DNA from: Cymodocea nodosa
Lineage: Eukaryota > Streptophyta > Magnoliopsida > Alismatales > Cymodoceaceae
Length of the DNA: 64,000 nucleotides
Direction: 5' to 3'
NCBI GenBank assembly: GCA_036874045.1
Contig: CM072344.1
Coordinates: forward strand, 8,466,501 to 8,530,500
This document shows, piece by piece, positions 30,352 through 64,000 of this stretch. Each line of letters starts with the position of its first letter. The stretch's first letter is position 1. Made by a program: the position numbers and the translations under genes. Under the pieces are notes generated by a model. It ran no database searches and had not been told where the DNA came from. It worked only from the letters and a program-made list of their open reading frames with translations.

Positions 30352-30446
30352 TTGTGTGGAACCCAAGCTCTTATACCTTTGGTGGCTCACAAGCAAGCTA
30401 GTTGGTTTTTTAGAACAGATACCAATAAACTAGATTGATATTTTTC
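30352..30446 (-). ncRNA. Candidate structured RNA block, copy 1
   Basis: This ~95-bp block lies 105-200 nt after the F-box stop and is conserved in all three copies. It can form three successive hairpins, clearest in copy 3 (TTGGTA/ACCAA-, TGGCT/AGCCA- and AGGC/GCCT-type stems). No known RNA family was recognised, and it is not an evident tRNA. Confidence 0.35.
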
Positions 30447-30550
30447 TTTTCTTTTCCTTTTCTAAAGGTAAATAAAATAGAAACTAAAAAAAAAAATTTC
30501 TTAAAGATAAATGCAACATATACTCAACATTAAAAGTACAAAATCACAGT

Positions 30551-31289
30551 TTAAGAACATGATTGAAAAGTAGTGACAAATGGAATAAATGTGTCAATCC
30601 AAGCAAACTTTTTAGGCATAATTCTTTTTGCTATTAATTCTGTTTTAATGTATTCTACTTTCCTTTTTAACTTGTAAACTTGCAGCATGTTATCAATGGT
30701 AAATATAAGTGTATTACCATTAATGAATTGAAATATAGAAAGGGATCCTCTTTTGTTCCAAGATAATGTAGTTGTTTCTATTTCTACATATATTTCAATA
30801 TATTCCTCTTCCCACTTCCATTCATTTAGGTCTTTCATAATCCATATTTGAAATTTCATCAATTTATCTCCCCATCTTATCAGACATAAAGTAGGATCAT
30901 CATATTCATTATACCATAATCCTAATTGAATTTTATCATGTTCTGCAAATGGTGGTTCAACCATATCATTAGGTATAGGCAATATTTCTATAAAGTCGTC
31001 ATCATAACTGTCTATGCTTACTATGTATAAATCAGATCTAAATGCAACTGATATATCCATGACTAGATATATATATCCATTAAGTATGACATGTATGTTG
31101 TTAATTAATGTTTTCTCTCCTAGATATATCATAGTATTTTCAATCCAAGATCTATTTAGAAAATTATACACACTTAAGCATAGATCCTCATCGCAATTTG
31201 TAGTTGTTTTCCAATAATACAATTTTTCAAGAATGGTCGAATTTTTATTACAAAATGTTAAAGCTAACCCACAATTCTTAATTAGTACT
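30551..31289 (-). pseudogene. F-box protein gene, C-terminal part, copy 1
   Basis: This encodes the F-box-associated (FBA/kelch-like) interaction domain of a plant F-box protein. Visible motifs are VILNGYIYLVMDISVAFRSD, DLYIVSIDSYDDDFIEILP, DDPTLCLIRWGDKLMKFQIW and the WIMKDLNEWKW block, which matches the typical IWVMKDY..W pattern. In plants such proteins recruit substrates to SCF ubiquitin ligases through SKP1. The N-terminal part lies at 33316-33721, beyond a solo LTR. It is a passenger of the retroelement and is not intact. Confidence 0.85.
31285..31289 (+). repeat. Target-site duplication GTACT, left
   Basis: GTACT precedes the solo LTR and matches 33316-33320. A 5-bp duplication is standard for LTR integration. 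Confidence 0.92.
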
Positions 31290-33315: not shown

Positions 33316-33721
33316 GTACTTCAAATCTATTAGACCTTTCTATATTCCATTCTTCTCTAGTAATAGGATTTCTAATCAAAATATCAGGTAACAGAATAGT
33401 ATATCTTGGTTTGGTTCTATAAATAATTATTCCTTCATCTATCCCCATAATATGATCTATTCCTTCTAATGTATTAGATGGAATTCCAGTAGTTTCTTTC
33501 ATATTTAAATATTCATAACTAATTGAACTATGATTAAATGACTTCCATAAAAATCCATCTCTAATATTAGTCATCTTTACAGCTTGTAGTCCATGAAAAT
33601 ATTTTTCTCTAACACATTCTTTAATTTCTTTTGACACACAACACAATCTACACAGATCTTTAGCTAATAAGTTACTCAATACTTCCCTTAGTGCATCTAG
33701 CAGTAATTTCATCAATTCCAT
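33316..33721 (-). pseudogene. F-box protein gene, N-terminal part, copy 1
   Basis: The start is placed at the ATG complementary to 33719-33721 (MELMKLLLD), because copy 3 starts at the same residue (MELMQLPLD). Upstream in-frame residues are not shared. The F-box motif covers residues ~6-40: LLAKDLCRLCCVSKEIKECV fits the consensus L...L..R...VSK.W. Then comes IIIYRTKPRY and the beginning of the associated domain (IRNPITREEWNIERSNRFEV). The gene continues at 30551-31289 past a solo LTR. Confidence 0.85.
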
Positions 33722-33890: not shown

Positions 33891-35230
33891 TTATATTTTT
33901 CTACTTAATATATTATACATAGTTACTTCAGTTATGCTACTTCATTCAGCTTCCCTCCCATAGGAGGTATCAATTTCATTAACAATTCTATTGATAGGGT
34001 TAGGCACTACTTACATTGGCAATCCTCTAGTAGGTTTAACTTCTATTGATTCCTTCTGTCTAAGAGGTATATTTCTATTCATATTCTGATTCTAAATGGT
34101 AGCATTTCCAAATACATAGTCTAAACAATTGTTTAATTGTTGAATTATCTTTTCTAATTTCTTTATTCTAGATCCTTGTTTAATTAATGCTTCATAACTT
34201 ATATTTTTGTCATTTATATTTTCTCCTCCTTGAAAATTGTTATTTCTCCAAGATAGGTTCAGGTGATTTTTCCAATTAGGGTTATAAGAATTTCCAAAGA
34301 TATCTTTCTAGTTTCTAGAATTTCCAAAGATATCTTTAAGTAAATAATATCTAAGTCATTAATATACATTCTTTTCTGCTAGTTTTTTATTTAATGATAA
34401 CTCCTAAATTTTCTTTGTTAACTTAGTTAATTTAACTTTAAGCATAGTACTTGAATCTATTTCATGCATTCCCCTTGGTAATATTCTTTTATTTGTAATA
34501 GCTTCAACTGAGTTTTCCCACTAAGTAGTTCTTTTTGCAAAGTTTTCTAAGTATGCCCATGCTTCTTCACTACACAGTTTTAAAAATCCATTCTAACAAG
34601 TAGATTCTAATAAAGATTTACTTGAAACGTCCATGTCTTCATAAATTATACCTATTAATTGTGCTTTACTCATTGCATGAAGTAGACATTGAGTCAATAA
34701 ATCTTTAAATCGTGCAAAATATTTCTAGAATGATTCTCCCTATTTTTGGCTACACATTAATATTTCCTTTTTCTTTCTAATCGTTTGATGTGTTGGATAA
34801 TATTTTTCTAGAAAAACAAAGCAAAATTTAGTCCAAGCAAAAATTGAATCAGGCGACAGAGTATATAACCATCTCTTAGTTGTCTTTTAAAGAAAAAGGA
34901 ATATATCTAAGTTTAATAGCATCAATACTCATGTTCGGCATTTTCATCATTTTACAAACTTCCTTAAATTCTGTAAGGAAATAATAGGCATCTTCTCTTT
35001 CTAATCCATGAAAGTGTGGCAATTGACTAATATAATTAGATTTCAGTTTAAACCTATTTCCCTCAAAGTTTGGCAATCGAATACATGAAGGTTCATCAAC
35101 TAGTTTAGGATACAAAATTTCCCCTAATGGTTTTTCTACTAGAGCAATCATATCTTTGTTCTCCTTTAAAGAAAGGTTAGCTACAACCCTAAGGATTTCA
35201 TTAAAGTTCTCTTCAAAATTTTTTTTCAGG
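33891..35230 (-). pseudogene. Athila-type gag remnant, copy 1
   Basis: The gag core is recognisable at 34876-35151: FEGNRFKLKSNYISQLPHF, then DAYYFLTEFKEVCKMMKMPN and IDAIKLRYIPFSLKDN, which match the Athila/Gypsy retrotransposon gag pattern (..F.LKP.LI...F.G...EDP..HL..F...C......G...DAIRLRLFPFSL.D.A). The C-terminal part (about 34200-34480) aligns with the copy 3 gag at 63607-63840. In Athila elements protease and reverse transcriptase follow gag; here the F-box gene follows. It has many breaks. Confidence 0.82.
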
Positions 35231-36267
35231 ATTCTTCTATGTTAAATAATCTCGTCTAGGAGAATGAGTCCATGTGCTCATAAACTCTTAACATAAAGTA
35301 AACTTGTAGAAGATTAATTACATACTAGTCTGAAGCTTTGTTCTCAATAAATAATTATTGACGGATGAAGTTGAATCAACTACTTCTCATTCTAGTTCCC
35401 CAACGAATTCTCTTTCCTCTTCTCAATTGCTAGTAACTAATAAATAAAATTCTATTCTATATTTATAATGCACGTCTATAAGGCAAATGGATCTCATTGC
35501 AAAAACATGTCTTATGACGTGCAGTATGGTTCCTATTTTTATGGATGTGTTCCATTTCTAATTTCAAATTTTAGTAACCACTAAACCCATGAAGTTTCGT
35601 TTGTGCCTAAAAGAATAACTGTTAGACTAACTCCACGAACTAACTTCGTTGAGTTACAGATAACTCAACAGACTAACCTCAATTACTATTTGCTAACTCC
35701 ACGGATTAACTTCATTGGGTTACAGATAACTCAACGGAGTGACCTTATATTTTAATATTAACTTCGTGGAGTTAAGGTTAACTCCACAAACTAACTTCAT
35801 TGAGTTAACACTTAGTAAATTTTTCTAAAACTTACTCCTCATCTTAACTTCTATATATTTTCCTCCTACATTTTATCAACTTAAATAAAGTTAAATACAT
35901 TACATTAATGTAGTGTTCCAATTTAAACTCATTTAAATCTGAACATTATATGCATATTTAACTTACAGTTCATTTCCTGTTATGTAGAAATTACATTTTA
36001 CTTTTTAGTATGTAAATATATTCAGACATTATCAAATCATCATGCATTTAACAACCTCATTCATAAAATTGTAAATTTTTTAACACATTCTTGCAAAGCT
36101 TTAAATAAATAGATATATAATATTCATCTTCAATACAGTTCTCAATTAAATCATTCATTCACAATCACACAATTTCAGAAACATCTGATGTTCAAACATT
36201 CATATATATATCATTTACAATACATACAATCAAACATTTTTCAGTACAAGTAGATGAATAATACATT
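35231..36267 (-). other. Non-coding region between aORF and gag, copy 1
   Basis: No gene is seen. It contains a dense dyad cluster at 35610-35825 and a TATAAATATAG-like sequence on the minus strand near 35455. That could mark a leader or a degraded LTR upstream of gag, but no LTR end or primer site is certain. The part at 35985-36240 matches 53247-53520 downstream of the aORF in copy 2. Confidence 0.55.
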
Positions 36268-38471
36268 TTAATCTTTCTTCCTAAGTTCATCTATATCTTT
36301 GTAGAGCTTTTCTAATTGTTGTTCTCATTGGTTTATATGTTCTACAACTCCTATAATTTCTCTAGAAGGTCTAGCTATCTCAGCAGCAGCAGCATTGTAA
36401 TTTCTATACTCCACTGAAATGGCTCTAGATCTTATCCTCTTGGATGTCCATTTCATGAAGTCAATTCCTTCCATCATTAATATTGATATGAAGTCCCCAA
36501 AAAATAGTTTCTTCTTTACAGACTTTATCTTTGATAGGAAGACTTGGCACCAATTAACTTGAATTTTGTTTAGAACTACATACATGGCCCATTTGACAAA
36601 TTGACTCAATTCTATATCATGGTCATGCCTTGGATAGACATTTTTAATTAAAATGTTTGCCACCATGTGTGCTTTCCCATTTAAATACTTCAGTCTATTA
36701 AGTAATGACACACTAGGGTTGATGGTCAATCATTGCTTGATTTCTTGTTCTATCCATTCAGTTGTAGTTGTATTTTCCAAAATTTCAATCCCTTCATTTT
36801 TCAGTCCAAAGATGTTGTGGAGGAGTTCTAGTGTTATCTAAATATTAACTTCCTCCACATTAGAAATTAATTTTCCTTCTTCCTCTCTTAGGCTTGCATA
36901 AAAGTAGGGCACTAAATTTTCATAAACTACATGCCCTTTTGCTCTCGAAATAAATTCCAATAGGTACTAGAATTCAAATAATTCTCTAATCTCCTCCATT
37001 CCAATCTAGTCAACTGGCCTACTATAAATTATATCATACCCCTTTTATCTCTTGATACTTGTTGTATACTTCCTAACTCTAGAAATGAATTTCATTCAGA
37101 ATAGTTGCTTCAAACGGGTCAGGGATTTGGATTTGTTCCTCTAGAGGGGTTTGTTCTTGAACTTCTTCAATTTTCTGAGCTTGTTGTTGTAATTGTTGCT
37201 GAAAATAATGTAGAGATTCCTACTCTTCTACTCTGAATTATTGTGGAAAGCCTGTAGAACTTTCCACATTTTTATCTTGAATTTTCTCCATAAGTTGTTA
37301 AAGAGTTTCATTCTCTTCAAAGGAATCTATCGAATTTTTTTCTTCCAATTCAGCTTCCTGCTTAGCTTCTTCTCTTTCTTCTTCCTCTTCACTATCAATC
37401 TGCATTGTTACTATTCTCTCTGATTCTATAGTAGATTAGGATGGAATCTCAGGCACAGTATTTTCTACCCTAACTTCAGTTTCTAATTCTTTAGGTTGTA
37501 GACTAATTTCAGCCTACTCTTCTTCTTCTTCTTCAGATAATAAATCCACAAAAATGGGCTCTTTATGCCCTACTGTAGACATTATAGGTTCAGATTTAAT
37601 TTCTTCTACAGTTTTAGACACTTTTTCTTTTCCTTTTCTTCTTCTTAACAGTTGTGCCTGATCTTCTTCTGACACTAAGTCAACAAAAATGGGCTCTTCA
37701 GGCCCTCGAGCCACAAGTATTGGCTCTTCCTATTTCACCTTCTCTATAGTTGCTGGTCTCGAAGGACTAGCCTTAGTTTCTCTTATAATTGGTATGGCAA
37801 TGGCTTCTTGATGTTGTTCAACTTTAACTTTGTATTAGGCCTTCAACTTTTCTGTAGCCCTTCTTTTGTGAAATGCATCAAATGCCAAATGTGCTTTAGC
37901 TACTACCAAATCTTCTAGTTCACCTTGGTTTTTCCCAACTTGAATCAGTTCTTCAAACTCTCTCAACTCTTCTTTAGTAGAAGACCCCATAACTACCACC
38001 CTTTCTAGTGGTTTAGGTGATGGAATTGAAGGTCCTACTTGTTGTGCTGTTGCAGACGACATTTTAACTTGGTTTTTTAGTTGTTACTATGAAGATTTTA
38101 GCTACTGCTCTTGTTTTTCCTGCTCTCTCTATTCTTTAAATTATTGATAAGCTGCTTCTGCAACTTTCTTCCTTATAAACCACAACTGTGATTTCCTTCT
38201 TATAAGTTCTAGGGCAACTTCATTGTGCAGCTTGATTTTTCTTTCTCTATTGATGGTTGCTTTCGTAGTTACTCGTATTCTTGTTTCCATTATTTGAGGT
38301 ATTCTAACATTCAAATTTACGAGCTTTCTAGTAAAGAAGAATAGATCATCCTCTACCTTTTCAAGTTGCTTTTCTCTCATGGTGTTTCTGATCTTCTACC
38401 ATGAATGTCATTCCTCCAATTGTTTGAGAAATTCGGTAGTGTCAAACTAATCCTAGAAGTTTTGCTCCATC
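36268..38471 (-). pseudogene. aORF remnant, family A copy 1
   Basis: This is an extra ORF after integrase. The N-terminal part (38141-38380) has a charged, coiled-coil-like segment. The centre (37514-38062) has a repeated acidic phrase, EEPIFVDLVSEEDQAQLLRR and later KEPIFVDLLSEEEEEE. The C-terminal part (36325-37000) carries the plant transposon-protein-like domain with LNGKAHMVANILIKNV and KIQVNWCQVFLSKIKSVKKK. Related sequences are at 53529-57552 (copy 2) and 2525-4727 (element D, opposite strand). Function is unknown. It has several breaks. Confidence 0.72.
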
Positions 38472-39202
38472 TTTGTCTTCGTTGTGTTATGGAACAGAAT
38501 AGAATTGCTCTGACTTTTACTATTCTAAGTTCTAAATGATTGCTACAGATAATGCCCCCAAATCCTAAGTTTTAGTATAAATAAACCTTAAGTTTTTGGT
38601 GGGTAATTAGGTCATTTCTCATGCAAACTATCACTACTCACATATACTACTCCGTGGAGTTACAGTTAACTCCATAGACTAAGTCTGTGGACTTACCTTA
38701 AGTACTTCGTTGAGTTATAGTTAACTCAACAGAGTAAGTTCGTTAACTTAATCCTAGACTCAACAAAGTAAGTTCGTTTAATTAAGCTTAATTTAACAGA
38801 CCTCCTGTAAAGTTATAACTAATAAAAATAAATAACTATAATAAATTTTTACTCGGTCAATACTAAAGAAACTCCAGTTTGATCGACTCTTAATTTTTCT
38901 ATTTGCTTAACTTCGATCAAACCGTTACTTTTCCTTGGTCGAACCGAAATTATAGAATTTTTTTTTCTTTTTCTACCAATTGAACCAATACCATGCTTTA
39001 GTAAAATCGATATTTTTACTTAATATAATATATATATATATTCTATGTTTCAGTCAAACCGATGGATCCTTTTGGTGTGACCATAACAATATTTTTTTCT
39101 TTTAATATATGTTTCAGTAAAATTGATAATTTCTTTCGATTGAACCGTCACTATATTTAAAATAAGTTTTTTTTTTTAACAAAAAAAAACATAAGTATAT
39201 AT
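38472..39202 (-). other. Gap between integrase and aORF, copy 1, with two repeat types
   Basis: Non-coding. A dyad cluster lies at 38640-38810. Next comes an array of about eight degenerate GGTTTGACCGAAA-like motifs (either strand, 38860-39170). Copy 2 has the same two blocks at 57715-57850 and 57895-58230. Confidence 0.7.
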
Positions 39203-39632
39203 CTACTTAATAAAGCTCATGCAGTCCTCTACTCTTACTTCTATAATTCCAAAGGAATTTTTTAGAATTTTCAAAATAGGTCTAAGTCTTTATTCATTTA
39301 CTTTAAATATATTCTGATTTTTAGGATTTTCAATTTCAATAGCTCTATAGGAATAAATATTTCAAATTATATAAGGACCTATCCATCTAGATCTTAATTT
39401 TCCTAGATGGTTATGAAGTCTAATTATGTAAAGATATACTTCTTATACTATTTCAAAAGTTTTTGAAATAATTTTCTTGTAATGCCAAAACTTTATTTTC
39501 TCTTTTCTTTTATAGTTTTCGAATAAGCTTCATTGATAAATTCTTCTAACTCAATTAATTACATTTTTCTATTTTCAGCACCTTGATTTAAATTAATGTT
39601 TAGAGTTTTTAATGCCCAATAAGCTTTATGTT
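39203..39632 (-). pseudogene. Athila-type integrase C-terminus, copy 1
   Basis: The end of integrase is seen in minus frames: a region like LHNHLGKLRSRWIGP and a final EDCMSFIK. It aligns with 58264-58690 in copy 2. The N-terminal part is cut off by the LTR of Copia B starting at 39633. Confidence 0.75.
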
Positions 39633-47135: not shown

Positions 47136-47940
47136 ATGTTAAATGAACATAATTTACCTCAAAATCTTTGGGTTGAAGCAGTGAATACAACTTGTTATAT
47201 TATTAACAGAAGTCACCTAAGACCTCTTGTTAATAAAACTCCTTTTGAAATTATGTTTGATAGGGTTCCAAAAATTTCCTATACGAAACCATTTGACTAT
47301 AAGTGTTTTATCCTTAACACTAAGGATAAAAGGGATAAATTTCACGCCAAAGCGGATGAAGGAATTTTTGTAGGTTACTCTACTAGAAGTAAAGCCTATA
47401 GAGTTTATAATAAGACTTCTAAAACCATTGAAGAAACCCTTCATGTAAGCTTCAATGAAAATTCTTTTAGAGAATCTCAATCTAAAGTTGATAATGATGA
47501 TATGATCAATTTCCCAAAAGAATTAGAGATCCATAGAAAGATTGAAGATTTATTTGAGAAAATTAAAAATATGAACTTAAATGATCAAACTAATGATCAA
47601 AGTAATGTACCTTCAAATGTTGATGAGAATATTGAGGAGAATTATAGAAATTGGCATTATTCTTCATCACATCCCATCACTCAAGTCATTGGTAATATTA
47701 ATGAGGGAGTTAAAACCAAAGCTTCAGTAAATTTAAATAGTATGTGCATGTTTGTTTCTATGGTGGAACCAAAGAATATAGAAGAAGCATTATCTAATGA
47801 AAATTTGATAGTGGCAATACAAGATGAACTAAATCAATTCATCAGAAATAATGTTTGGGAATTAGTCTCTCCACTAGAAAATCAGTCCATAATAGGTACA
47901 AAGTGGATCTTTAGAAACAAAACTAATGAGACTAGTCAAG
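47136..47940 (+). pseudogene. Copia integrase C-terminus and start of reverse transcriptase, element B
   Basis: One open stretch encodes the LWVEAVNTTCYIINRSHLRP part, the GIFVGYSTRSKAYRVYN motif, the acidic linker, SSHPITQVIGNINEGVKTKA, and the beginning of reverse transcriptase up to GTKWIFRNKTNETSQ. At 47941 the LTR of family A copy 2 begins; residues read beyond it come from that LTR. Confidence 0.87.
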
Positions 47941-49739
47941 TGTTCAGTGTCAAAATCTGTTTGATTTGTTTTTTATGCTTATATTAATAAATTCTTTTAG
48001 AAGTAAACAAACAACTTTTCACACAAATTAGATATTAAGTCCAATTTGTATTTTAACTGTAAGTACACAATGTATATTGTATTTGTGTGCAAGTACAGGT
48101 CGATCCCATAGAGATTGAGTAAGAATTGTGTATTATTTCAATTTTTATATTGGAATTTACATGTGTTCAGTTAAGCACTCTGTTGAGTTACAGTTAACTC
48201 AACGGACTTAGTTCGTAGAGTTAGGGTTAACTCAATAGACTAACCTCATAGACCTAAGTTAACTCCATAAGCCTACCTTTCCAATTAAATACTATTATTC
48301 ATAGAGGAATTCAACTAACTATTGGGTAGTTCCACAGAATGTAAATAACATCAATTAAGCTCTTTAATGTTAGTTAATATGAGATTTGTCATTAAACAAC
48401 ACTAACATTCAAATATTTCAAACAGTAACCATTAAAATCTTTAAGTATCTAAGACGAATCAATTTTAGTAAATAATAAAACTATTTTCTATTTTTTGAAT
48501 CAAACAAACATAAAACATTTACAATAATGACAATGATAGCATTAACCATAATACAATACAACACTTTACTACTAAATGTAAACATAGATAATTAGTTGTT
48601 TTGGGTATTTTTTTATTTTGATATGTTCCTGAAGATGAATGAAAGGTGGAATGTAAAAATCTCTATCGACAGTAAAAACTTCCATCACTACATGTGACAC
48701 GATTACACTACTGAAAACTTAATCACTTACAGTCTTGCCTCGTCTCCCTATAGAATCACAAACTAAGAATTGTAAGTTGATCTCCTCTTCAACATACTAG
48801 CATCAACCTGAAACCTAGGCTAAAAGTTTTACAATCTCCTAAGATATGCTTGGTGAAAATGGCTTCCCTTCCTATGATGCAATCGCTCCTCATAGTGGTT
48901 GTCAATCACTATCTTTGGCTTGGAATCTACCCGACATTCGAAAAGTATCCTCACAGATCTCCGATGGTTGGTGATTTTGGTGAGCTTTAGGGAACTTCCA
49001 ATGCTTCCTGTACTAAGAATTGTAAGTTGATCTCCTCTTCTTTTATATTTCTTTTAGTAGTAACTACTTTTACTTAAATGATGGGTTGGATTTTCTTCAT
49101 TCATATCAACGATGGTGATTTCTTCTTCATTCCACGAGTGAATTCCTACGTGATACATGTAATCGTGGTTTTCCTTTGAATTTCCTATTTCTACAACTAC
49201 TATAGTGGTATGTTAGAAAATAAATAGTCTGTAAAGTTAGTGTAACTCAATGGACTTATTTTGTTGATTTAACTATAAAACACATGCAATAAAGAAATAA
49301 CTTATAAGCTTATAACACTAACACAATGCATTACCTTAGTGTATATTCAAGTAACTCAATGCGTATAGTTATACTAACTTAACGAGTTATATATGTGCAA
49401 CTCATGTGACATAATAAAACATTTAAATTCAACACGTGCACTCTAAGAAATAATAAAATATTCTTTAAGTGTTTAAAATATAACTATCTAGTACATGAAA
49501 TATAACTCTTCAAAATAACAGAAAATTCGGATACCTAAGAATTAAAAAGCCTATGATTCACCGACAGTTCAGAAATATAATTAATTAACACTAATTCCTT
49601 GAAATTATGTAGATTCTTTCATTAAAGCATATAATAGTGCAATTATAACATAATGGCTTAATTCTCATATGATAAGCTAAATATTATGCAATTAACCATC
49701 ATTTAACCGTTAATATTATGCACTTTTTCATTCTAAACA
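47941..49739 (-). repeat. 3' LTR of family A copy 2, 1,799 bp
   Basis: On the minus strand it starts TGTTTAGAATGAAAAAGTGC at 49739 and ends ACACTGAACA at 47941. It carries the U5 phrase near 48090-48110, dyad clusters (48180-48270; 49230-49440), and overall similarity to the solo LTRs. The last ~17 bp differ from theirs. Confidence 0.9.
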
Positions 49740-49755
49740 CTTCTCCCATACTTAA
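49740..49755 (-). other. Terminal polypurine tract, copy 2
   Basis: The complement reads AAGTATGGGAGAAG before the LTR. Confidence 0.78.
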
Positions 49756-51585
49756 CTTTTGCTAGTCCCTTAGTAAACTACTAATATCTAACTAGTTGGT
49801 CTTTCTAAAGTGCTAGAACTAATTCTTCATTTTTTCTTTAGAATACATATATTAGATTAGTATAAAGATATTCTATATTTTTCAGTAATCTAATTTAACA
49901 TTGTTTTCTCCTCTTCAACTTGCAAATATATTTAAAACATATGTAAAATACATACAAAACATACTAGCATCACGTAGGTGGTAATTATATTATCATTTTT
50001 TCTTTTCAAACATTTGTTATCCTGAATTTTCCTATATGATTTCCAGAATAAATTTCAACTACATATGAATCAAAAATAATAAATTTCAACTACATACGAA
50101 TCAAAACACAATCCAACTCAATATGATTAAACAAGAAGAATAATGAATTGTATCTCAAATAAACAACTTCAAAAGTCTAATCTAGATTCATACTTCAGTA
50201 ATCATAAATAATAGAAAATATACTCGATTCAAAAGATTTCTAAATTTTCACAAAACACTTTTATCTTTTCAAAACAGTATATGCATATTTTTACTTTAAA
50301 AGTTAATTTGAAAAGCTTGAATCATACAAGAGCTTTCTAATGTACTCATGTATCTAGCTTTCAATCAACAATCTCAGATCTGATCAAAATCTTAGGTTGC
50401 TAAATTTAAAGAGTTCTTTTTCAAGTCAACAATCCTTACATACCTATCTACTCAAGTATAAAAGGCTTATGATCAAACAAATCAATAAACTCTCAAAGTT
50501 TTTCTCTTTTTTTCCTCTCTTTTTCTTTTCAACACTATATATATAAGTATTTCATTAATATAGATGCAATAAAATACAAATCTCATATAATCCTACTTCT
50601 ATAATTTACTGAAAACATGAATCCACATCAATAAGCTCATACTTTTTCTATAGTTTAATAAGATTTACACGTTAATCATTCTACAAGTTTAATCAATCAA
50701 ATTAAATGTATCCTTGATCATATGTATTTTATTTAATCTAAAAATCAACATTTCAGCTCTTTCAGGATATAAGATCATTTACTGAGTTTCAATTAAGCAT
50801 TCTGATATCTTTAAAATTGTGAAACTATTAAACTCATAAAATTTAGTAAAGACATAAGATACTATATCCAAATTTGTATTAATAGTGAAATTTGTAGCAT
50901 CTTATATAAGATTCTAAATATAACATTCAAGTAGTTATAGTTCTTAAAAATTTTACAATTTTAATTACCGGGTAGTTACAAGAAATTTCAATTAGTTATA
51001 GCAAATTCATAAATAAATAAAAATTTCAATTTCTACAAAAATTTGCAGCACAATCCTAATTCCTCTAATTAACAAAATTACTTGGATTTTAATCTAATTA
51101 CCTCGCCCCTATATCTACATTTTTCATTGTTTTCAATGTAAAAGATTTTACAGTAAATACATTAAATGTTAGCAAGCATAAATATTATTTTATTGACTTA
51201 ACACCTAACTCAACGAACTTAATTTATTGAGTTAATGAATAACTCCACGAATTGAGTTTAAATGTAAATTCAATATAAGTAATCAATTACATACCTTATT
51301 CTTTTGTATCTCCTTTAATATCTTCCGACTTTTAATTCTGAAAAACTTTTCATTCACAAATAAAAGTAGAATATATAACAAAATAACATTTAACAACAAA
51401 ACATAAATTGTTAAATCAGTGCCTTGTGTGGAACCCAAGCTCCTATGCCTTTGGTGGCTCACAAGCAAGCCAGTTGGTTTCCTAGAATAGATACCAACAA
51501 ACTGGATTGATATTTTATTTTTCTTTTCATTTTTCTTCAAAATAAATGCAAAGTACACACAACATTAAAAACACAAAATCACAAT
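49756..51585 (-). other. Conserved tail between F-box gene and 3' LTR, copy 2
   Basis: Non-coding, aligned with 28710-30550. It includes the internal polypurine motif (51101-51138), a dyad cluster (51190-51260) and the structured block (51421-51515). Confidence 0.8.
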
Positions 51586-52196
51586 TTAAGAACATGATTG
51601 AAAAGTAGTGACAAATGGAATAAACGTGTTAATCCAAGCAAACTTTTTAAGCATAATTCTTCTTGCTATTAATTCTGTTTTAATGCAATATGCTTTCCTT
51701 TTTAACTTGTAAACTTGCAGTATGCTATCAATACTAAATATAAGTGTATTACCATTAATGAATTGAAATGTAGAAAGGGATCCTCTTCTGTTCCAAGATA
51801 ATGTAGTTGTTTCTATTTCTACATATATTTCAATATATTCCTCTTCCCACTTCCATTCATTTAAGTCTTTCATAATCCATATTTGAAATTTCATTAGTTC
51901 ATCCCACCATCTTATCAGACATAAAGTAGGATCATCATATTCATTATACCATACTCTTAATTGAATTTTATCATGTTATGTAGATGGTGGTTTAGCAATA
52001 TCACTAGGTACAAGCAATATTTCTATAAAGTCATCATCATAACTGTTTATGCTTACTATGTATAAATCAGATCTAAAAGCAACTGATATATCTGTGACTA
52101 GATATATATATCCATCAAGTATGACATGTATGTTGTTAATTAATGATTTCTGTCCTAGATATATCATAGTATTTTCAGTCAAAGATTGTAGGATCG
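51586..52196 (-). pseudogene. F-box protein gene, C-terminal part, copy 2
   Basis: It encodes the F-box-associated domain, with VILDGYIYLVTDISVAFRSD and the block FQIWIMKDLNEWKWEEEYIE. It ends FVTTFQSCS like copy 1. The upstream limit is the end of an LTR B fragment at 52197. The N-terminal part is not present next to it. Not intact. Confidence 0.85.
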
Positions 52197-53528: not shown

Positions 53529-56500
53529 TTAATTTTTTTTCTTAATTCATCTACTTCCTTCTAGAGTTTTTCTAATTATTGCTTTAACTAATTTATATGC
53601 TTTACAACCCCTCTAATTTCTCCAAAAGATCCTGCAACAAATGTTCCAATAGCAACAATCAAATAATTCCTATATTCCTTCACCGAGATGGCCCTGGATT
53701 TCATCTGTTTGGATGTCCATCTAGTGAAGTCAATATTGTCCACCATCGACAATGGAATTAGATCTCCATAGAATAATTTTTTCTGTGCTACCCTCAACTT
53801 GGAGATAAAAATTACAGACCAATTTACTTGAATTTTGTTCACAACTGCATATATGGCCTATTTAACAAATTGACTTAATTCTATATCATGGCCTTGTCAT
53901 TGGTAGACATTTTTAATCAAAATATTAGCTACCATGTGTGCTTTACCATTTAAGTACTTCAATCTGTTTAATAATGGCACACTAGGATTGATAGCTAAAC
54001 AACCTTTTATTTCTTATTCTGTCCACTCAACTGTAGTCGTGCTCTCAAGAATTTCTTTTCCTTCATTTCTAACTCCAAAAATATTGTGGAGAAGCTCTGG
54101 TGTTATCAGTACATCAGCTTGCTCCACATTGAAAATTAATCCTCTTTCCTCATCTCTTAAATTTGCATAAAAATAGGGTACTAAATTTTCATACACTACA
54201 TGCCCTTTATGGTGAGAAATAAATTGCAATAGACCTTGGAACTCAAATAATTATTTAATGTCCTCCATGTCGTCCTAGTTTACTAGTCTACTATATATAA
54301 TATCAAACCCCTTTATCTCTTCATATTTATTCATTACTTCCTGACTCCAAAAACATACATCATTCAGAACTTGTTGTTGAGAAGGGTTAGGAATCTGAAA
54401 TTGTTCCTCTACTGGGGGTTTTTTTCTACTACTTCCTCAAGATGTTGAACTGGTGTTTGTTGGAAATGATTCGGAGATTCCTGCAATTCAGTTCCTACTT
54501 CTATCTATGGTGGAGAGCCGGTAGAACTCTCCACTCTTTTTTCTTGTACTTTCTCAATAAATTGCTGAAGAGTCTCTCCATCTTAAGTGGAATCTGTCGA
54601 GTCATTTCCTCTTTGTTCAATATGCTCTTGTTCAGCTTCTTCTATTTTTTCTTCCTCCTCACAACCAATATCTAATGTCACTATTTTTTCTGAATCATTA
54701 GTAGATTGGGATGGAGTCCTAGGCAAATCATCTTCTACCCTAATTATTTTTTCTAGTTATGCAGGCTATAAGCTAATTTTAGCCTATTTTTTCTCTCTTC
54801 TTTGCTTTTGCTGTTGCTACTCCTGCTCCTCATATTTGAATAACAGATTAACAAAAATGGGCTCTTTAGGCCCTACTAATAATATAGGCTCAGATTTAAC
54901 TATCTCCTTAGCCTCAAGCACTTTTTCTTTTTCTTTTCTTCTTCTTATTAGTTGTGCTTGTTCTTCCTCTAAGACTAAGTCAACAAAACTGGGCTCTCCA
55001 AGCCCTCGAGCCATAGGTATTAGCTCTTCCTACTTAACATTTACTAGTCTGGAAGGACCAGCTTCAAATTCTCTTGTAGCTAGTGATCTAGCTGCTTTAG
55101 AATGTTGTTTTAATTTAATTTTATATTAGGCCTTCAACTTATCTTTGGCCCTCTTCTTGCATAGTGCATCATAAAGTAAATGAGTCTTTATCATAGCCAT
55201 ATCTTCAGAATTTCCTTAGTTCTTGGAAACTTTCACGAGCTTTGCAAATTCTCTCCATTCCTTTGGCATCGATGGCTATTTAGAATAAAAAAGTGCATAA
55301 TATTAAGGGTTAAATAATGGTTAATTGCATAATATTTAGCTTATCATATGAGAATTAAGCCATTATGTTATAACTGCACTATTATATGCTTTAATGAAAG
55401 AATCTACATAATTTTAGGGAATTAATGTTAATTAAGTACATTTCTAAACTGTTAGTGAATTGCAGGATGTGAAATTCTTAAGTATTTGAATTTTTTGTTA
55501 TTTCGAAGAGTTATATTGCATGTACCAGATAGTATGTTTTAAAAGAATATTTTATTATTTCCTGGAATGCACGTGTTGAATTTAAATGCTTTAGTATATC
55601 ATGTGAGATGCACATGTTTAACTCGTTAAGTTAGCATAACTGTACGTGTTGAGTTACATGAATACACACTAAGGTAACACGTTATGTTAACAGCTTATTT
55701 CTTTATTGCACGTGTTTTATAGTTAAATCAATGAAGTAAGTCCATTGAGTTATCTTTAACTCCATGGACCATATATTTTCTAATATGCCACTGTAGCGAT
55801 TACAGAAATAGGACATTCGAAGGAAAACCACGATTGCATGTATTTCGTAGGAATTCACTCGTGGAAGGAAGAAGAAATCACCATCATTGATATGAATGAA
55901 GGAAATCCAACCAATCATCTAAGCAGAAGCAGTTACTACTAAAGAAATATAAAAGAAGAGGAGAAAAATGAAGAAAGGGTGGTTGGCAGTGTGTGTAGAG
56001 GTGGAGGACCGTGCTAACTACAGGCAGCATCGGAAGTTCACTAAAGCTCCACACCATCACCAAAATCACCATAATCACCAACCATTGGAGGTCTGTGAGG
56101 ATACCTTTTTGATGTCGGGTCGATTCCGAGCCAAACATAGTGCCTGACAACCATTGTGAGGAGTGGTCGCGTCGCGGGAAGGGAAGCCATTTTCACCAAG
56201 CATTGACTCATATCTCAGGAGATCGTAAAGCTTCTAGCCCTAGTTTCGGGTTGATGCTAGTATGCTGAAGAGGAGATCATCTTACAATTTTGGACTTGCA
56301 ATTCTATAAGCAGAGGAGACAGGATTGTAAGTGATTAAGTTTTCAGTGGTGTAATCGCATCATATGTAGTGATGAAAGTTTTTACTATCGATAGAGATTT
56401 TTACATTTCACCTTCCATTCATCTTCATGAACATATCAAAACAAAACTACCAAAAACAACAACTTATCTGTGTTTACATTTAGTATTAAAGTATTGTATT

Positions 56501-57552
56501 GTTTGTTTTGTATCGTGATTAATGTTATCATTGTCAATATTGTAAATGTTTTATATTTGTTTGATTCAGAAAATAGAAAATAGTTTTACAGTTTACTGAA
56601 ATTGATTCGTTCTAGATACTTAAAGATTTTAATGGTTACTATTTGAAATATCTGAATGTTAGTGTTGCTTAATGATAAATCTAATATTAACTAGCATTAA
56701 AGAGCTTAATTGATGTTATTTACAATCTATGGAACCACCCAATGGTTGGCCGAATTCCTCTGTAAATAGCAGTATTTAACTGGATAGATAGACTCGTGGA
56801 ATTAACTTAAGTCCACAAACTAGGTCCGTTGTGTTAACTATAACTCAATGGAGTGCTTACTGAATACATAAACTCTAATATAAAAATCAGAACAATACAC
56901 AATTCTTACTCAATCTTTGTGGGATCGACTTGTACTTGCACACAAATACAATATGCACTATGCACTTGCAGTTAAAATACAAATTGGAATTAATATATAA
57001 TTTGTGTGAAAGGTTATTAGTTTACTTCTAAAAGTAATTATTGATATAAGCATAAAGACAAATTAAACAAGTAAAAATAGAAGTTAACAAACCCCAAACA
57101 ATGGCCCCAAAAATGCTTCTCTTCCCAACAGCCTAGGTGGTGCAATTGATGGTCCTGGCTACTATTCCTCTGTAGTAGGTTTTTCAATAGTAGGCTCTTC
57201 AACTGCTTTCTTTTGTTGCTCCTCAATGTCCCACCAAGCGTGTCTAGAAATATCTTACAAACCATAGTCGTGACTTGTGCTAGATCAACTCTAGGGCAAC
57301 CTCATTATTTGGTCTTATTCTCCTTTCTCTATTCACAGCCATCTCTATTGCTACTTTGATTCTAGTTTCTACTATCTGAGGCATTCTAATATTTAAATCA
57401 ACCAAAACTCTTGTCTAGTAGAAAATTTCAGATTCTACCTTTTCTAATTCTTTTTCCCGTGTCATATTCCTGATCTTCTATCGTGTATGTCATTCCTCTA
57501 ACTCCTTGAGAAATCTTGTAGTGTCAACTACTTCCCAGAATTCTAGTGTCAT
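53529..57552 (-). pseudogene. aORF remnant, family A copy 2 (split by a solo LTR)
   Basis: The start near 57552 (MTLEFWEVVDTTRFLKELEE) matches the start of copy 1. The acidic phrase EPSFVDLVLEEEQAQLIRR is at 54817-55014. The conserved domain is at 53588-54229, with HKGHVVYENLVPYFYANLRD, ITPELLHNIFGV and NKIQVNWSVIFISKLRVAQK. A solo LTR lies within (55277-57100). Plus-strand frames at 53934-54170 and 54587-55129 are shadows of this region. It is broken in several places. Confidence 0.75.
55277..57100 (+). repeat. Solo LTR of family A in the aORF, 1,824 bp, with ATGGC duplication
   Basis: ATGGC occurs at 55272-55276 and 57101-57105. The body aligns with 31290-33315. It has a dyad cluster (55610-55760), CTCCACACCATCACC in U5 and the phrase GGGATCGACTTGTACTTGCA at 56922-56941. 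It ends AACCCCAAACA, unlike the other two full LTRs. Confidence 0.94.
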
Positions 57553-58263: not shown

Positions 58264-59612
58264 TTACTTAATAAAGCTCAAGTAGTCCTCTACTCTTACT
58301 TCTTCTACAATTCCAAAGGAACTTTTTGGAATTTTTAGAATAGGTCTAAGTCTTTGTCCATTTACTTTAAATATATTCTGATTTTTAGGATTTTTAATTT
58401 CAATAGCTCCATAGGAATAAATATTTCAAATTATGTAAGGTCCTACCATCTGGATGTCAATTTTCCTAGATGGTTATAAAGTCTATTCATATATAGATAT
58501 ACTTCTTGCCCTATTTTAAAAGTTTTTGAAATAATTTTGTTGTCATGCCAAAGCTTCATTTTCTCTCTTTCTTTTACAGTTTTCGAATAAGCTTCATTTT
58601 CGAAATAATTTTCATTCCTAAATTCTTCTAACTCAATTAATTGTAGTTTTCTATTTTCAGCACCTTGATTTAAATTAGTGTTCAGAGTTTTTAATGCCTA
58701 ATAAACTTTATGTTTAATTTCAACTGGTAAATGGCAACTTTTTTCATATACAATTTTAAAAGGTGGCATACCTAAGCTTGTCTTATAAGCAGTTCTATAA
58801 GCCCAAAGTGCATCTATTAATCTATTAGCCCAATCTATTCTAGTAGGATTTACTACTTTTTTTAAAATTAACTTAATTTGTTTATTTGCACTTTCTACTT
58901 GTCCACTTGTTTGTGGATAATATGATGTTACAATTTTGTGATTTACTCCATATTTCTTCATTAAGGCTTCAAAACTTCTATTATAGAAATGAGTTCCTCT
59001 ATCACTAACAATAGCTCTAAGTATTCCAAATCTAGCAATTATATTAGTTCTTATAAAATATATTACCACTTTGTTGTCATTAGTTTTTGTAGGAATAGGT
59101 TCTATCCATTTAGATACATAATCCACCCCTAACAATATATAATTAAATTGATTAGACATAGGAAATGGACCCATAAAATCTATTCCCCACACATCAAAGA
59201 TTTCAACTTCAACAATAGGATTCAGAGGCATCATATTCTTCTTTGATATGCTTCCTATTTGTTGACATCTTAAACAACTTAAACAGTATTTATGAGCATC
59301 TTTGAATAGTGTTGGCCAATAGAATCCACATTGTAGAACTTTGGCAGTAGTTTTCCCTGAACCAAAATGTCCTCCACATGCTTAGTCATGACAGAAAGAC
59401 AATAGGCTCTAATATTCAGTTTCTGGAACATACATCCTTAAAACCAGATCAGGACATTTCTTTAATAAGTATGGGTCTTCCCAATAGTAATATTTTACTC
59501 TTGAAAAGAACAAATTCTTATCCTGTCTATTTCAACTCTTAGGTGTTAAACCAATAAGTAAATAATTAACTATGTCTACATACCAAGGCATTGTGTTTAT
59601 GGTCATTAATTG
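58264..59612 (-). pseudogene. Athila-type integrase remnant, copy 2
   Basis: The zinc-binding region is at about 59250-59400 (GGHFGSGKTTAKVLQCGFYW). The core is one open stretch, 58698-59234: FDVWGIDFMGPFPMSNQ, YVSKWIEPIPT, IVSDRGTHFYNRSFEALMKK and YYPQTSGQVESANKQIK show the D, D, E set. The end LWAYRTAYKTSLGMPPFKIV and CHLPVEIKHK are typical of Athila. It is the best-preserved integrase in the window but is broken as a gene. Its upstream side ends at LTR B (59613). Confidence 0.9.
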
Positions 59613-60127: not shown

Positions 60128-60198
60128 GTGATAAGATAAATATTATGCAATTAACCATCATTTAACTGTTAATAATATGCACTTTTTCATTCTAAACA
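60128..60198 (-). repeat. 3' LTR start, family A copy 3 (partial, about 70 bp)
   Basis: On the minus strand it begins TGTTTAGAATGAAAAAGTGC at 60198 and ends at the joint with LTR B. Confidence 0.85.
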
Positions 60199-60221
60199 CT
60201 TCCCCCATACCTAAATTTTGC
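60199..60221 (-). other. Terminal polypurine tract, copy 3
   Basis: The complement reads GCAAAATTTAGGTATGGGGG followed by AAG, next to the LTR. It is nearly the same as the internal motif at 61513-61551. Confidence 0.82.
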
Positions 60222-61512
60222 TAGTCCCTTAGTAAACTAAGATCTAATTAATTGGTCTTTCAAAAAGTGCTAGAATTAATTCTTCCCCTTTTGTTTTTTT
60301 TTTCTTCTTTTGTTCAGCATAAACATATATTCTGTATGTTTTAGTAATCAACCTGCAAAGATATTTAGAATATATGTAAATTACATACAAAGTATATCAT
60401 CTTCATATAGGTGTTAATTATATTATCGTTTGTTATTCTTTTCATCATCTGTAATCCTGAATTTTCCAATAAGTTTTTCTAGAAGAAATTTCAACAACAT
60501 ACAAATTAAAGTACAATCTAATTCAATCTGATTAGACAAGTAGAATAAAGAATTGTATTTCCATTAAACAACTTCAAAAGTCAATTCCAGATTCATATTT
60601 TAGCAATTCTAGATAATAGAAAATATACTCGATTCATAAGATATCTGTATTTCACAAAACACTTGTATCTTTTCAGAACAGTATATGTTTTTTTCTTTTT
60701 CTTTTTTTTTTGTGTACTTTAAAAGTTAATTTGACAAGCTTGAATTATACAAGAGCTTTCTAATGTACCCATGTAACGAGCTTTCAGTCAATAATCCCAG
60801 ATCTGATCAGGATCTTAGGTTGCTAGATTTTCAGAGTCCTTTTTCAGGTCAACAATCCTTACATACCTATATGCTCAAGTACAAAAGGCTCGTGATCAAA
60901 CAAGTCAATAAACTCTCAAAGTTTTTTTTTTTTTTTCTAAAAATAAATGCACACACAAAACAAAGCATTAATCACATACTGTATATGCACGTGTTTCATT
61001 AATATAGATGTAGTAAAACACCAATCTCATATAATCCTGCTTCTATCATTTACTAAAGATATGAATCCATAACAATAAGCTCATACTTTATCTATAGTTT
61101 AATAAGATCTACACATAAATCATTCTACAAGTTCAATCAGTCAAAGTAAATGTATCTTTCATCATATGTGTTTCATTTAATCTAGAATTAACATCTCAAC
61201 TCCTTCAGGACTTCAGATAATTTTCTGATTAAGCATAAAATATTCTGATTTCATTTTAAAATCGTGAAACTATTAAACTCATAAAATTCAGAAAAATCAT
61301 AAGATACTATATCTAGATTTACATAAATAATAAATTCTATAGCATCTTCTATAGCCTTCTAAATATAACATTCAAGCAGTTTATAAAAATTTTACAGTCT
61401 CAATTATCAGATAGTTACAGCAAGTTCATAAAAATTTTCAATTTCCTCAAAACTTTGCAGTACTATTTTAATTCCTTTAATTAACAAACTTACATGGCTG
61501 TTACTTTAATTA

Positions 61513-61551
61513 CCTCCCCCCCATACCTACATTTTGCATTGTCCTCAATGT
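61513..61551 (-). other. Internal polypurine motif, copy 3
   Basis: The complement reads ACATTGAGGACAATGCAAAA then TGTAGGTATGGGGGGGAGG. ACATTGAGGACAATG followed by a G run is a known 3' feature of Athila-like elements and also occurs in element E (27533). Confidence 0.82.
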
Positions 61552-61775
61552 AAAAGATTTGACAATAAGTATAGTAATTGTAGCAGGCATGAATAAAGTA
61601 TTACAGTAAAAATTCAGCTTGTTTGGTTTAAAATTCAAGATAAGTAATTGGTTACATACCTTGTTCCATTTGTATCTCTTTCTGCATATTCTGATTTTTG
61701 ATTCTAAAAAACTTTTCATTCCCAGATAAATACAGAATATAAAACAAAATAACATTTAACAGATATTAATAAATC

Positions 61776-61875
61776 AGTGTCTTGTATGGAACCCAGGCTC
61801 CTATGCCTTTGGTGGCTCACAAGCAAGCCAGTTGGTTTCCCAGAACAAATACCAACAAACTAGATTGATATTTTG
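61776..61875 (-). ncRNA. Candidate structured RNA block, copy 3
   Basis: The block lies 115-215 nt after the F-box stop. Stems are TTGGTATTTG...AAACCAA, TGGCT...AGCCA and AGGC...GCCT. It is conserved in copies 1 and 2 above the level of its surroundings by eye. No RNA family was recognised. Confidence 0.38.
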
Positions 61876-61990
61876 TTTTGTTTGTTTTTTTTTTTTTAGA
61901 AAATGAACATGAAAAATTTCAAAATTCCTTTTTTTTCTTTTTTTAAAAATAAATGCAAAATACACAACATTAAACACACAAAATCACAGC

Positions 61991-63129
61991 TTAAGAATAT
62001 GATTGAAAAGTAGAAACAAATGGAATAAATGTATCAGTCCAAACAAACTTTTTAGGTATAGTTCTTCTTGCTATTAATTCTATTTTAATGTAGTTCTTGT
62101 TCCTTTTTAATTTGTAAACATGCAATATATTATAAATTCCAAATATGAGTGTATTACCATTAATGATATGTAATGTAGAAAGAGATCCTTTTTGGTTCCA
62201 GGGTAATGTAGCAGTTTCTATTTCTACATCTATTTCAATATACTCCTCTTCCCACTTCCATTCATTCATGTCTTCCATAATCCATATTTGAAATTTCATC
62301 AGTTCATCCCACCATCTTATTAGACATAAAGTAGGATCATCTTCTTCATTATACCACATTCCTATTTGAATTTCATTAAATTTTTCAGATGGTGGTTTAG
62401 CTATTTCACTCGGTACAGGTAAAATTTCTATATAATCATCATAACTGTCTATGCTCACTATGTATAAATCAGATCTATATGCTATTGATATCTCCGTGAC
62501 TAAATATATATAACCATCAAGTATGACATGTGTTTGGTTAATTAATGATTTCTGTCCTAGATATATCATAATGTTTTCATTCCAAGATCTGTTTAGAAAA
62601 TGATACACACTTAAGCGTAAATCTTCACCCCAATTTCCTGTAGGTCTCCAATAATATAATTTTTCAGGAATTGCAGAATTTTTATTAGAAAATATTAATG
62701 CTGACCCACAATTTTCAGTTGGTGCTTCAAATATATTAGGTCTTCCTATATTACATTCTTCTCCTGTTATAGGATTTCTTATCAAAATCTCAGGAATGAT
62801 AAACTTGCATACCTTGGTCTCGTCTTGTATATGATTAATCCTTCATCTATCCCCATAATATGACTCATTCCTTCTAATGCATTAGGTGGAATTCCAGTAG
62901 TTTCTTCCATAGCAAGATATTCATGGGTATTTGAACTACAATTAAATGACCTCCATATGAATCCATCTCTAATCTTAGTCATTTTTGCAGCTTGTAGTCC
63001 CTGAAAATATTTTTCTTCAATACAGTCTTTAATTTCCTTTGATACACAACACAGCCTGCACAAATCTTTAGTTGACAAGTTACTTAGTATTTCCCTTTGT
63101 GCATCCAACGGTAATTGCATCAATTCCAT
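61991..63129 (-). pseudogene. F-box protein gene carried by family A copy 3
   Basis: The span codes for about 380 residues, a normal length for F-box/FBA proteins. The F-box is at residues ~4-40: LPLDAQREILSNLSTKDL then CRLCCVSKEIKDCI. The associated domain follows, with IMGIDEGLIIYKTRPRY, IRNPITGEECNIGRPN, HVILDGYIYLVTEISIAYRS, WDELMKFQIWIMEDMNEWKW and a final FVSTFQSYS. Such proteins link substrates to SKP1-CUL1 ubiquitin ligases. No intron is evident, as expected for a copied gene. It is nearly whole, with about one break. Its place between gag and the 3' tail, repeated in copy 1, makes it a retroelement passenger, not a local host gene. Confidence 0.9.
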
Positions 63130-63290
63130 TTATCGATTCTGTAAAATAAAAACAAAAATTTAGCAGAGACAAAAATTAACATAACTACTGCACACCCTCG
63201 TGGAGTTAAGGCATAACTCAATGGACTAAGTTCGTTGAGTTAAAAATTAACTCTACGATACTATTAACTTAAAATAAAAATAAAAACATA
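63130..63290 (-). other. Gap between gag and F-box gene, copy 3
   Basis: It has a dyad cluster at 63190-63260 (TAACTCAAT...GTTCGTTGAGTTA), as in copy 1. Confidence 0.72.
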
Positions 63291-64000
63291 TATACATACA
63301 GATAGTTGCTTCAGATATGCTGCTTCATTCAGTTGCCCTCCCAGAAGAGGTATCAATTACATTAACCGTTCTATTGACAGGATTAGGTATAGCTTGTATT
63401 GGCAATCCTCGAGTAGGTGTAACTTCCATTGGTTCCTTCTATCTAAGTGATATATTTCTATTCTGATTTTGATTTGCACCATTTCCAAATATAAATTCGA
63501 GACGATTGTTTACTTGTTGGATTATCTTTTGTAATTTCTCTATTCTAGCTCCTTGTTCAATTAATACTTCATAACTTATGTTCTTCTCATTTATATTTTC
63601 TCCTCCCTAGAAATTGTTGTTTCTCCAAGATAAATTCAGGTGATTTCTACAATTAGGATTATAAAAATTTCCCAAGTTATCTCTCTGGTTTCTAGCGTAA
63701 ATAATATCTAAGTCATTTATGTTTGTATTCTTTTCTGCTAGCTTTTGATTTAATGAAAACTCTTCTATTTTCTTTGTTAATTCATTTAATTTCACCTCAA
63801 GCATAGTATTGGAATCTATTTCATGCATTCCTCTTGGCAATAATCTTTTATCTGCAATAGCTTCAACCGAATTTTCCCACTATGCAGTTCTTTTTGCAAA
63901 ATTTTCTAAATATGCCTATGCTTCTTCACTACATAATTTTAAAAATCCATTTTGACAAGTAGATTCTAATAAAGATTTCGTTGAAACATCTATGCCTTCA
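63291..64000 (-). pseudogene. Athila-type gag remnant, copy 3 (runs off the window)
   Basis: The frame at 63607-63840 shows MPRGMHEIDSNTMLEVKLNE, a coiled-coil-like KKIEEFSLNQK segment, and the Athila gag phrase NPNCRNHLNLSWRNNNF (usual form NPGWRNHPNFSW). The C-terminal Gln/Asn-rich part continues to about 63300. It aligns with 33891-34480 in copy 1. Broken. Confidence 0.83.

Follow-up and report, generated by a model that had tools for sequence, protein, structure and literature searches.

The F-box gene and its copies in the window

The stretch analyzed here (the window; 64,000 nucleotides of Cymodocea nodosa, C16:8466501-8530500 in a host genome of 374.6 Mb in 28 contigs) is in large part filled by plant transposable elements, with nesting in its right half. 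Three related segments on the minus strand, namely copy 1 (35281-28406), copy 2 (52186-47937) and copy 3 (64000-60129, extending past the window edge), very probably represent decayed members of a high-copy, Athila-type Ty3/gypsy family of long terminal repeat (LTR) retrotransposons, in which a gene for an F-box protein with an FBA-type C-terminal domain is a resident gene. The order in copies 1 and 3 is gag, a 0.2-kb spacer, the F-box gene, a 1.8-kb tail, a polypurine tract (PPT) and the start of an LTR, here called LTR A; copy 2 begins inside the F-box gene and continues with the tail, PPT and LTR A in the same way. The features are listed below, where a slash marks a splice boundary and L-numbers denote genomic loci or stretches outside the window that were compared with the window copies.

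Copy 3
63325..64000, minus strand: C-terminal part of gag, with TGA at 63327, running off the window (identity to copy 1, L031, L032 and L034)
63139..63140, minus strand: predicted splice acceptor AG, immediately 5' of the F-box ATG (TTTTATTTTACAG/AATCGA; from the exon boundary of L033)
61991..63129, minus strand: F-box/FBA gene, with a single 2-nt frameshift near 62800 (PF00646 at 62785-63129, E=5.3e-11; TIGR01640, E=1.9e-6; alignment)
60199..61990, minus strand: tail, with an internal PPT-like motif at 61513-61552 and the terminal PPT at 60199-60212 (sequence comparison)
60129..60198, minus strand: first 70 nt of LTR A, cut by a copia LTR fragment (sequence comparison)

Copy 1
begins 35325, minus strand: predicted splice donor GTATGT (from the donor boundary in L033)
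33942..35281, minus strand: gag (capsid), with several stops (PF03732, E=7.9e-5, just below the cut-off)
33316..33721, minus strand: F-box gene, 5' part (PF00646 at 33278-33832, E=8.1e-7)
31290..33315, plus strand: LTR A insertion within the F-box gene (GTACT on both sides)
30551..31289, minus strand: F-box gene, 3' part, open to TAA (TIGR01640, E=8.7e-7)
28700..30550, minus strand: tail with PPT (alignment)
28406..28693, minus strand: LTR A start, truncated (sequence comparison)

Copy 2
51586..52186, minus strand: C-terminal half of the F-box gene, cut by a copia LTR fragment (alignment)
49740..51585, minus strand: tail with PPT (alignment)
47937..49739, minus strand: 3' LTR A, apparently ending inside a copia pol open reading frame (ORF), as judged from the sequence

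A preliminary description of this DNA had reported an F-box gene in three copies, which holds for copies 1 and 3; copy 2 keeps only the last ~200 codons and has no F-box domain. Its placement of gag upstream of the F-box gene on the same strand in copies 1 and 3 was confirmed, the C-terminal gag stretches of the two being 85% identical (copy 3 is 96% identical to the gag of L031, L032 and L034), while the distance between the two genes, put there at 0.5 kb, measures 0.2 kb (stop at 63327, ATG at 63129). The common tail also stood up, with 1.79-1.86 kb from the F-box stop to the LTR start in all three copies, ending in the PPT and TGTTTAG.

The F-box domain is unambiguous. In two intact genomic ORFs PF00646 reaches 39.7 and 38.8 bits against a cut-off of 20.5 (F-box E=3.7e-10), whereas the C-terminal TIGR01640 match, significant in copies 1 and 3 yet under its curated cut-off, reaches E=1.5e-6 and 4.1e-7 in these ORFs (28-30 bits against a cut-off of 37.9). 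Intact relatives of the gene have 379 codons, and removal of the LTR A insertion and one GTACT from copy 1 restores an ORF of ~380 codons with no inner stop. A collection of 5.8 billion proteins yielded no relatives of the F-box protein (none in 838 candidates at E<=0.01, nor in 4,172 at E<=10) in searches that depend on shared words, the F-box being divergent; the neighboring integrase has thousands of relatives in the same collection, some of them named from grape, rose and Prunus. Sequence searches of the PDB gave nothing useful, a scan of viral contigs with one F-box piece gave no relative, Rfam gave 0 matches, and the predicted structure of the C-terminal part was unusable (mean pLDDT 32). 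Beside a current element, L035 holds older diverged F-box copies at 2111-3246 (+) and 5398-5766 (-), with 54-58% protein identity, which represent further F-box subfamilies.

The element family in the host genome

A first look for the F-box region of copy 3 gave 4,437 candidates in the genome. The best 40 of these, one being the window itself, were scored, and they matched essentially the whole 1,150-bp query at 95-98% (the window at 100%) on 16 contigs. A 35-base F-box word has 3,874 sites in the genome and a 37-base PPT-LTR junction 3,655 (<=3 mismatches each), while the reversed patterns have 0, so that chance is excluded for the F-box word. Among the exact matches listed for C1 (4.6-15.4 Mb), 30 out of 55 PPT-LTR junctions are preceded on their own strand, at a distance of 1.5-2.05 kb, by the exact F-box word; the same count gave 0 for the opposite strand and 1 for the downstream side, as controls. 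These pairings, on part of C1, speak against F-box copies lying mostly outside the family, an outcome that the preliminary description had named as fatal to its own reading.

Both LTRs were read in three elements. The LTRs were paired in all of them, and perfect 5-bp target duplications flank two out of three, a count of the kind that the preliminary description had called for: GAGCT/GAGCT around the element containing L012 (C2:7582060-7595950; Kimura two-parameter distance between LTRs, K2P, 0.038) and GGCTA/GGCTA around that containing L003 (C16:3804791-3821214; K2P 0.039, from a gap-rich alignment of 1,307 bases). The paired LTRs have TG..CA ends, the 5' LTR is followed by a primer-binding site (PBS; AGTTTTATGGCGCCGTTGCCGGGGA after the LTR end in L043, with variants in L032, L035, L046 and L051), and a PPT precedes the 3' LTR. 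Within the window, target duplications also flank two insertions of a lone LTR A (GTACT and ATGGC). At a substitution rate of 1.3e-8 per site per year, the LTR divergences of the three elements correspond to an age of about 1.5-2 million years. As the preliminary description had proposed from the window alone, the F-box gene is carried by an LTR retrotransposon family; this family has thousands of copies.

That the window instead holds a host F-box locus with nearby transposable element fragments, multiplied by tandem duplication, might be suggested by the three same-strand copies within 36 kb and by the pol/env pieces adjoining two of them. We consider this to have practically no chance of being correct. 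The thousands of copies are dispersed, LTRs are paired with target duplications, spliced-type copies exist (see below), and the neighbors have diverged unequally, the env-like pieces by copies 1 and 2 differing by d 0.34 as compared to d 0.10 for the tails. The LTR pairs, the genome-wide F-box word count and the C1 pairing were taken as refuting it. Segmental duplication of a host locus, an outcome that the preliminary description had also named as refuting its reading, was rejected on the same dispersal, target duplications and unequal divergence, two of the elements with paired LTRs and target duplications of their own being located elsewhere in the genome.

The remaining parts of the element were followed outwards from the F-box gene, and the corresponding features in the window are:

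35326..35983, minus strand: copy 1 leader, between the env-like region and gag (76-77% to the leader of L031-L034)
35983..37964, minus strand: env-like region adjoining copy 1 (71.5-72.9% to 53249-55255, a piece that is itself 72-74% to L031, L033 and L034)
38208..39632, minus strand: integrase end and following spacer adjoining copy 1 (79.6% to 57290-58715)
55278..57100, plus strand: second single LTR A insertion, between the integrase-side piece and the env-like piece (ATGGC duplication)
58446..59381, minus strand: integrase region of a related element (rve, 2.2e-11; H2C2, 7.8e-9; 86-87% to the integrase of L033, L035 and L036)

The element order is LTR, PBS, zinc knuckle, protease (PR), reverse transcriptase (RT), RNase H (RH), integrase (IN), env-like region, leader, gag capsid, F-box, tail, PPT and LTR. 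In 10-kb stretches at four F-box loci (L031-L034) the env-like region, leader, gag, F-box gene and tail are colinear in all four, except that the env-like region is mostly lost (a remnant) in L032 and gag is absent in L033; LTR A follows the tail in three out of four, the tail of L032 being cut. Window copy 1 shows the same order of integrase end, env-like region, leader, gag and F-box gene. Stretches further 5' contain the LTR A end, the PBS, an ORF with a CX2CX4HX4C knuckle, protease, RT, RNase H and integrase, with Pfam matches to RVT_1 (4.1e-29), RNase H (3.1e-33), rve (6.1e-15) and, under the cut-off, Asp_protease_2 (4.1e-4); the capsid gag of L032 matches Retrotrans_gag (E=1.3e-14). RT and RNase H lie 5' of the integrase in L036 (upstream of L034) and L043 (upstream of L033), and are also present in L044 (in the element containing L003); L035 lies upstream of L031. 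The adjacent stretches L050, L043 and L033 together give the whole chain except gag, while L036 and L034 give the chain from RT to the 3' LTR, gag included. The LTR-PBS-knuckle arrangement at the 5' end was found in five of the seven loci examined (L031, L032, L033, L003 and L012).

The PR-RT-RH-IN order that defines Ty3/gypsy elements was thus seen in the ORF pieces of L036 by Pfam, and likewise in L043. The GAG-PROT-RT-RH-INT order is departed from, as the capsid gene lies 3' of the integrase and env-like region and only the zinc knuckle lies 5'. By tblastn, the capsid gag had no match in the five 5' stretches L035, L036, L043, L044 and L046, all of which were matched by the zinc-knuckle ORF (in L036 and L046 partly). 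Being located 3' of the env-like region and having no match in these five stretches, the capsid gene is displaced. The preliminary description had put the F-box gene at the site expected for protease and reverse transcriptase after gag; instead, pol is found upstream, gag itself being displaced to the 3' side of both pol and the env-like region, so the F-box gene as a replacement of pol was rejected. A pol-less element as the general form was also rejected, given the RT and RNase H in L036, L043 and L044.

We regard the family as a high-copy plant Ty3/gypsy family, the label Athila-type, which is taken from the PBS, gag and layout, being tentative. The gag-first order is absent, and the Athila ORF-1 domain PF03078 had no match in the pieces scanned; both weigh on Athila membership. 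PF03078 occurs in 16% of Athila elements (PMC6317226). One env-like piece matches Transposase_32 (E=0.005, under the cut-off). The gene order probably arose by recombination, in which an element with pol and env would have joined an element with gag and the F-box gene, the 5' end of the latter becoming the internal leader. Recombination between Athila families is documented (PMC2410132).

A putative intron around gag, and selection on the F-box frame

In L033 the leader joins the F-box part exactly at ACTG/AATC (...TTCAGACTG/AATCGACAAATGG), where other copies read ACTG/GTATGT...TTACAG/AATC with the whole gag ORF in between. The stretch absent in L033 starts exactly at the GT of GTATGT and ends right after a pyrimidine-rich AG, from which we infer that it is an intron and that gag lies inside it. 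Genome-wide, 187 spliced junction sites were found as compared to 2,534 unspliced donors (<=2 mismatches; reversed controls 0), so that spliced RNA was probably copied back into DNA. Typing of the 30 loci that best match copy 3 gave one spliced, 26 unspliced and three "other", the latter nevertheless with intron sequence before the ATG. In a tree of the junction loci, five could be placed (two out of seven were too short), and these were spread over three or more positions among the unspliced copies, although with weak support; reverse transcription of spliced RNA thus probably occurred more than once. L033 itself (7359-9216, compared to L043 and L050) belongs to a spliced-type element with both LTRs and unlike flanks.

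A chance deletion of DNA, spread as a subfamily, could also leave a gag gap of this type. The 187 junction sites are so numerous that some probably do descend from earlier ones, and the tree support is weak. We nevertheless find this very improbable, since the gap runs exactly from GTATGT to after the pyrimidine-rich AG and the five junction loci occupy at least three places in the tree. On the splicing interpretation, translation of the F-box ORF from spliced RNA is the simplest reading.

The F-box genes of copies 1 and 3 differ with a dN/dS (omega) of 0.41 (bootstrap 0.29-0.59; 0.30 by YN00), as compared to a mean of 0.77 (0.53-1.10) in neutral simulations with the substitution spectrum of the tail, in which only two out of 2,000 runs gave 0.41 or less. 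Copies 2 and 3 likewise gave 0.41. Against the current copies L002, L012 and L020, copy 1 gave 0.39-0.44 and the older F-box of L035 (54-57% protein identity) 0.35-0.36, the latter at a dS of 0.73-0.78. Two indels were found in the F-box gene where ~20 were expected from the tail (P=3e-7), and the full F-box ORF is intact in 13 out of the 29 loci outside the window. For gag, the dN/dS between copies 1 and 3 is 0.30, though stops are present. Together, dN/dS values of 0.30-0.44 between subfamilies indicate that the F-box ORF has been under purifying selection.

Seven out of the eight places with internal gag stops hold TAG, mostly opposite CAG, CAA or TGG in the other copy, and among the F-box stops of 27 loci 14 out of 29 are TAG at TGG or CAG places. 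Such TAG-rich stops are as expected from the decay of methylated cytosines; a reading of TAG as glutamine in gag was set aside in favor of this ordinary C-to-T decay.

The constraint could predate capture or stem from use in the host, the gene being a host F-box gene captured by chance that hitch-hikes as a passive passenger. Captured host genes are common in plant LTR elements (PMC7264820, PMC3726574), and omega is higher among close copies (0.52, uncorrected, pooled over 27). We hold this to be improbable, however. Three F-box subfamilies, each located by the tail or LTR A, keep an omega of 0.35-0.44 over a dS of 0.3-0.8, and the constraint therefore persisted while the element itself diversified. 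Furthermore, a splice acceptor lies just before the ATG, and the word-based searches gave no relative of this divergent F-box in a database with many plant proteins.

Possible roles, related elements and further features of the window

Before turning to function, a number of observations should be mentioned that weigh against a mobile family with a selected, resident F-box gene. The 30 loci (29 of them outside the window) are the best matches to copy 3 and hence a biased sample. Out of the 55 exact C1 junctions, 25 have no exact F-box word listed within 3 kb upstream, which is due to mismatches, decay or absence of the gene. The element containing L033, perhaps a recombinant, has unlike outer flanks, no target duplication and an LTR divergence of 0.051. 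RT and RNase H are deleted in L035 and L032, i.e. in two out of the four long-flank loci (L031/L035 and L032), and the two loci without the 5' arrangement are L034, where the 5' LTR was not reached, and L014, where another, reversed element is found. Five gag ORFs were inspected, those of copy 1, copy 3 (in part), L031, L032 and L034; none is intact, as each has stops or frameshifts. Copies 1 and 2 gave an omega of 0.88 (confidence interval 0.43-2.5), although a near-neutral, uninformative value is compatible with what is expected of close copies after insertion. Lastly, the FBA-type domain scores lie under curated cut-offs, and binding to SKP1, the role in an SCF ligase and the target are putative.

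With a resident F-box gene in a spliced region, the element could work as follows. Unspliced RNA would serve gag and pol, while spliced RNA would allow the F-box ORF to be translated, much like retroviral Env from spliced RNA; if reverse-transcribed and inserted, the latter RNA would leave gag-less genomic copies. The F-box part of the protein may bind SKP1 and the C-terminal domain may pick a target for the SCF ubiquitin ligase, to the benefit of the element, with a silencing or defence factor, or a protein of the element itself, as the candidate target. In its full form, the family took up an F-box gene at the Env position as a lasting accessory gene and, by splicing out the displaced capsid gene, makes an F-box protein that directs the host ubiquitin ligase against a factor of silencing or defence, thereby aiding the rise to thousands of copies; this proposal is speculative and on balance doubtful. 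An anti-silencing role is attractive yet unproven, because plant viral F-box-type proteins counter silencing; a function within the cycle of the element itself stands on the same footing. The latter, e.g. in turning over or taking apart Gag or the integration complex, or in controlling the cell cycle, is a serious possibility that falls somewhat short of even, and agrees with the F-box being encoded next to gag in the same, apparently alternatively spliced region. Against it stands the fact that the known plant viral F-box-type proteins act on silencing (PMC6593998, PMC6784205). One of these, the F-box-like silencing suppressor P0 of poleroviruses (PMC6593998), resembles the present case as a selfish element with an F-box-type protein, a likeness by description only.

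Plant retroelements with extra ORFs, with captured genes or with introns, and Athila families that lack pol, are already known (PMC7264820, PMC2410132, PMC6317226; further PMC3726574, PMC5664825, PMC8764390, PMC13317346, PMC11963269 and PMC1142308). The pol-less gag+env Athila elements of Arabidopsis (Marco and Marin 2008, PMC2410132) share an Athila-type gag, a further sense ORF on which purifying selection acts (gag/env omega 0.19-0.38, as compared to 0.30 for gag and 0.30-0.44 for the F-box here) and recombination between families, but in the present family the extra ORF is an F-box gene, several copies do have pol, and gag is located 3' of both pol and the env-like region. A host-type gene in sense orientation is also carried by Bs1 and by other plant LTR elements that have transduced genes (PMC7264820, PMC13317346, PMC3726574), although transduction ORFs occur in one or a few copies (PMC7264820), whereas the F-box gene is family-wide, in thousands of copies and with a splice acceptor. 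The F-box "LTR-gene" of Thlaspi arvense (PMC8764390) and the NLRs of pepper (PMC5664825) are likewise F-box or host-type genes within LTR elements, there described as duplicated host genes and not as the conserved gene of one family. A 3' ORF reached by splicing, or an intron-containing genomic RNA, is seen in the env-like ORFs, spliced in Bagy2 (PMC7264820), and in the Ogre intron (PMC6317226), but here the 3' ORF is an F-box gene, the intron holds the capsid gene and the env-like region is further upstream.

In the openly licensed literature listed by the searches, neither an LTR element family with an F-box as its resident gene nor the combination of a family-wide selected F-box gene, a displaced capsid in an intron and genomic copies of the spliced form was noticed. 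The extra genes of plant retroelements are usually either captures that number one or a few copies, or ORFs shared by a whole family, for the most part lacking relatives among host genes (PMC7264820). The F-box gene is at once family-wide and of a host-type regulatory family, conserved by selection and with its own splice site, and the question of what such extra genes do becomes testable with a protein of known biochemistry. The displaced, intron-borne capsid gene and the apparent return of spliced RNA into the genome suggest that the gag-first order is not fixed, and the spliced-type genomic copies would constitute a DNA record of retroelement splicing.

Among further observations, the motif CGTTRAGTTA occurs 41 times in window 30152-63242, as compared to 0.36 expected from a mononucleotide shuffle. 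It is found partly in arrays with ~33-bp spacing, both in LTR A (32947, 32980, 33013) and in an unrelated copia LTR (40382, 40415, 40447), and is present also in the gag-F-box spacer and the tail; its occurrence in both LTRs possibly reflects a shared promoter module or sequence exchange. One copia LTR is found in two complementary parts of opposite orientation (52186-53246 and 59612-60128) around the pol/env piece 53247-59611, an arrangement as after inversion or ectopic recombination. A gypsy-type remnant at 25589-27567 (+) has a PBS-like site and a zinc-knuckle-like reading frame, with no pol noticed in it, and has a 36-nt motif (TACATTGRGGACAATG...TAGGTATGGGGGG) in common with the F-box tail, the elements being otherwise unalike. 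Lastly, repeats spaced ~150-158 bp and 347 bp are found at window 22654-23386 and 24783-25482.

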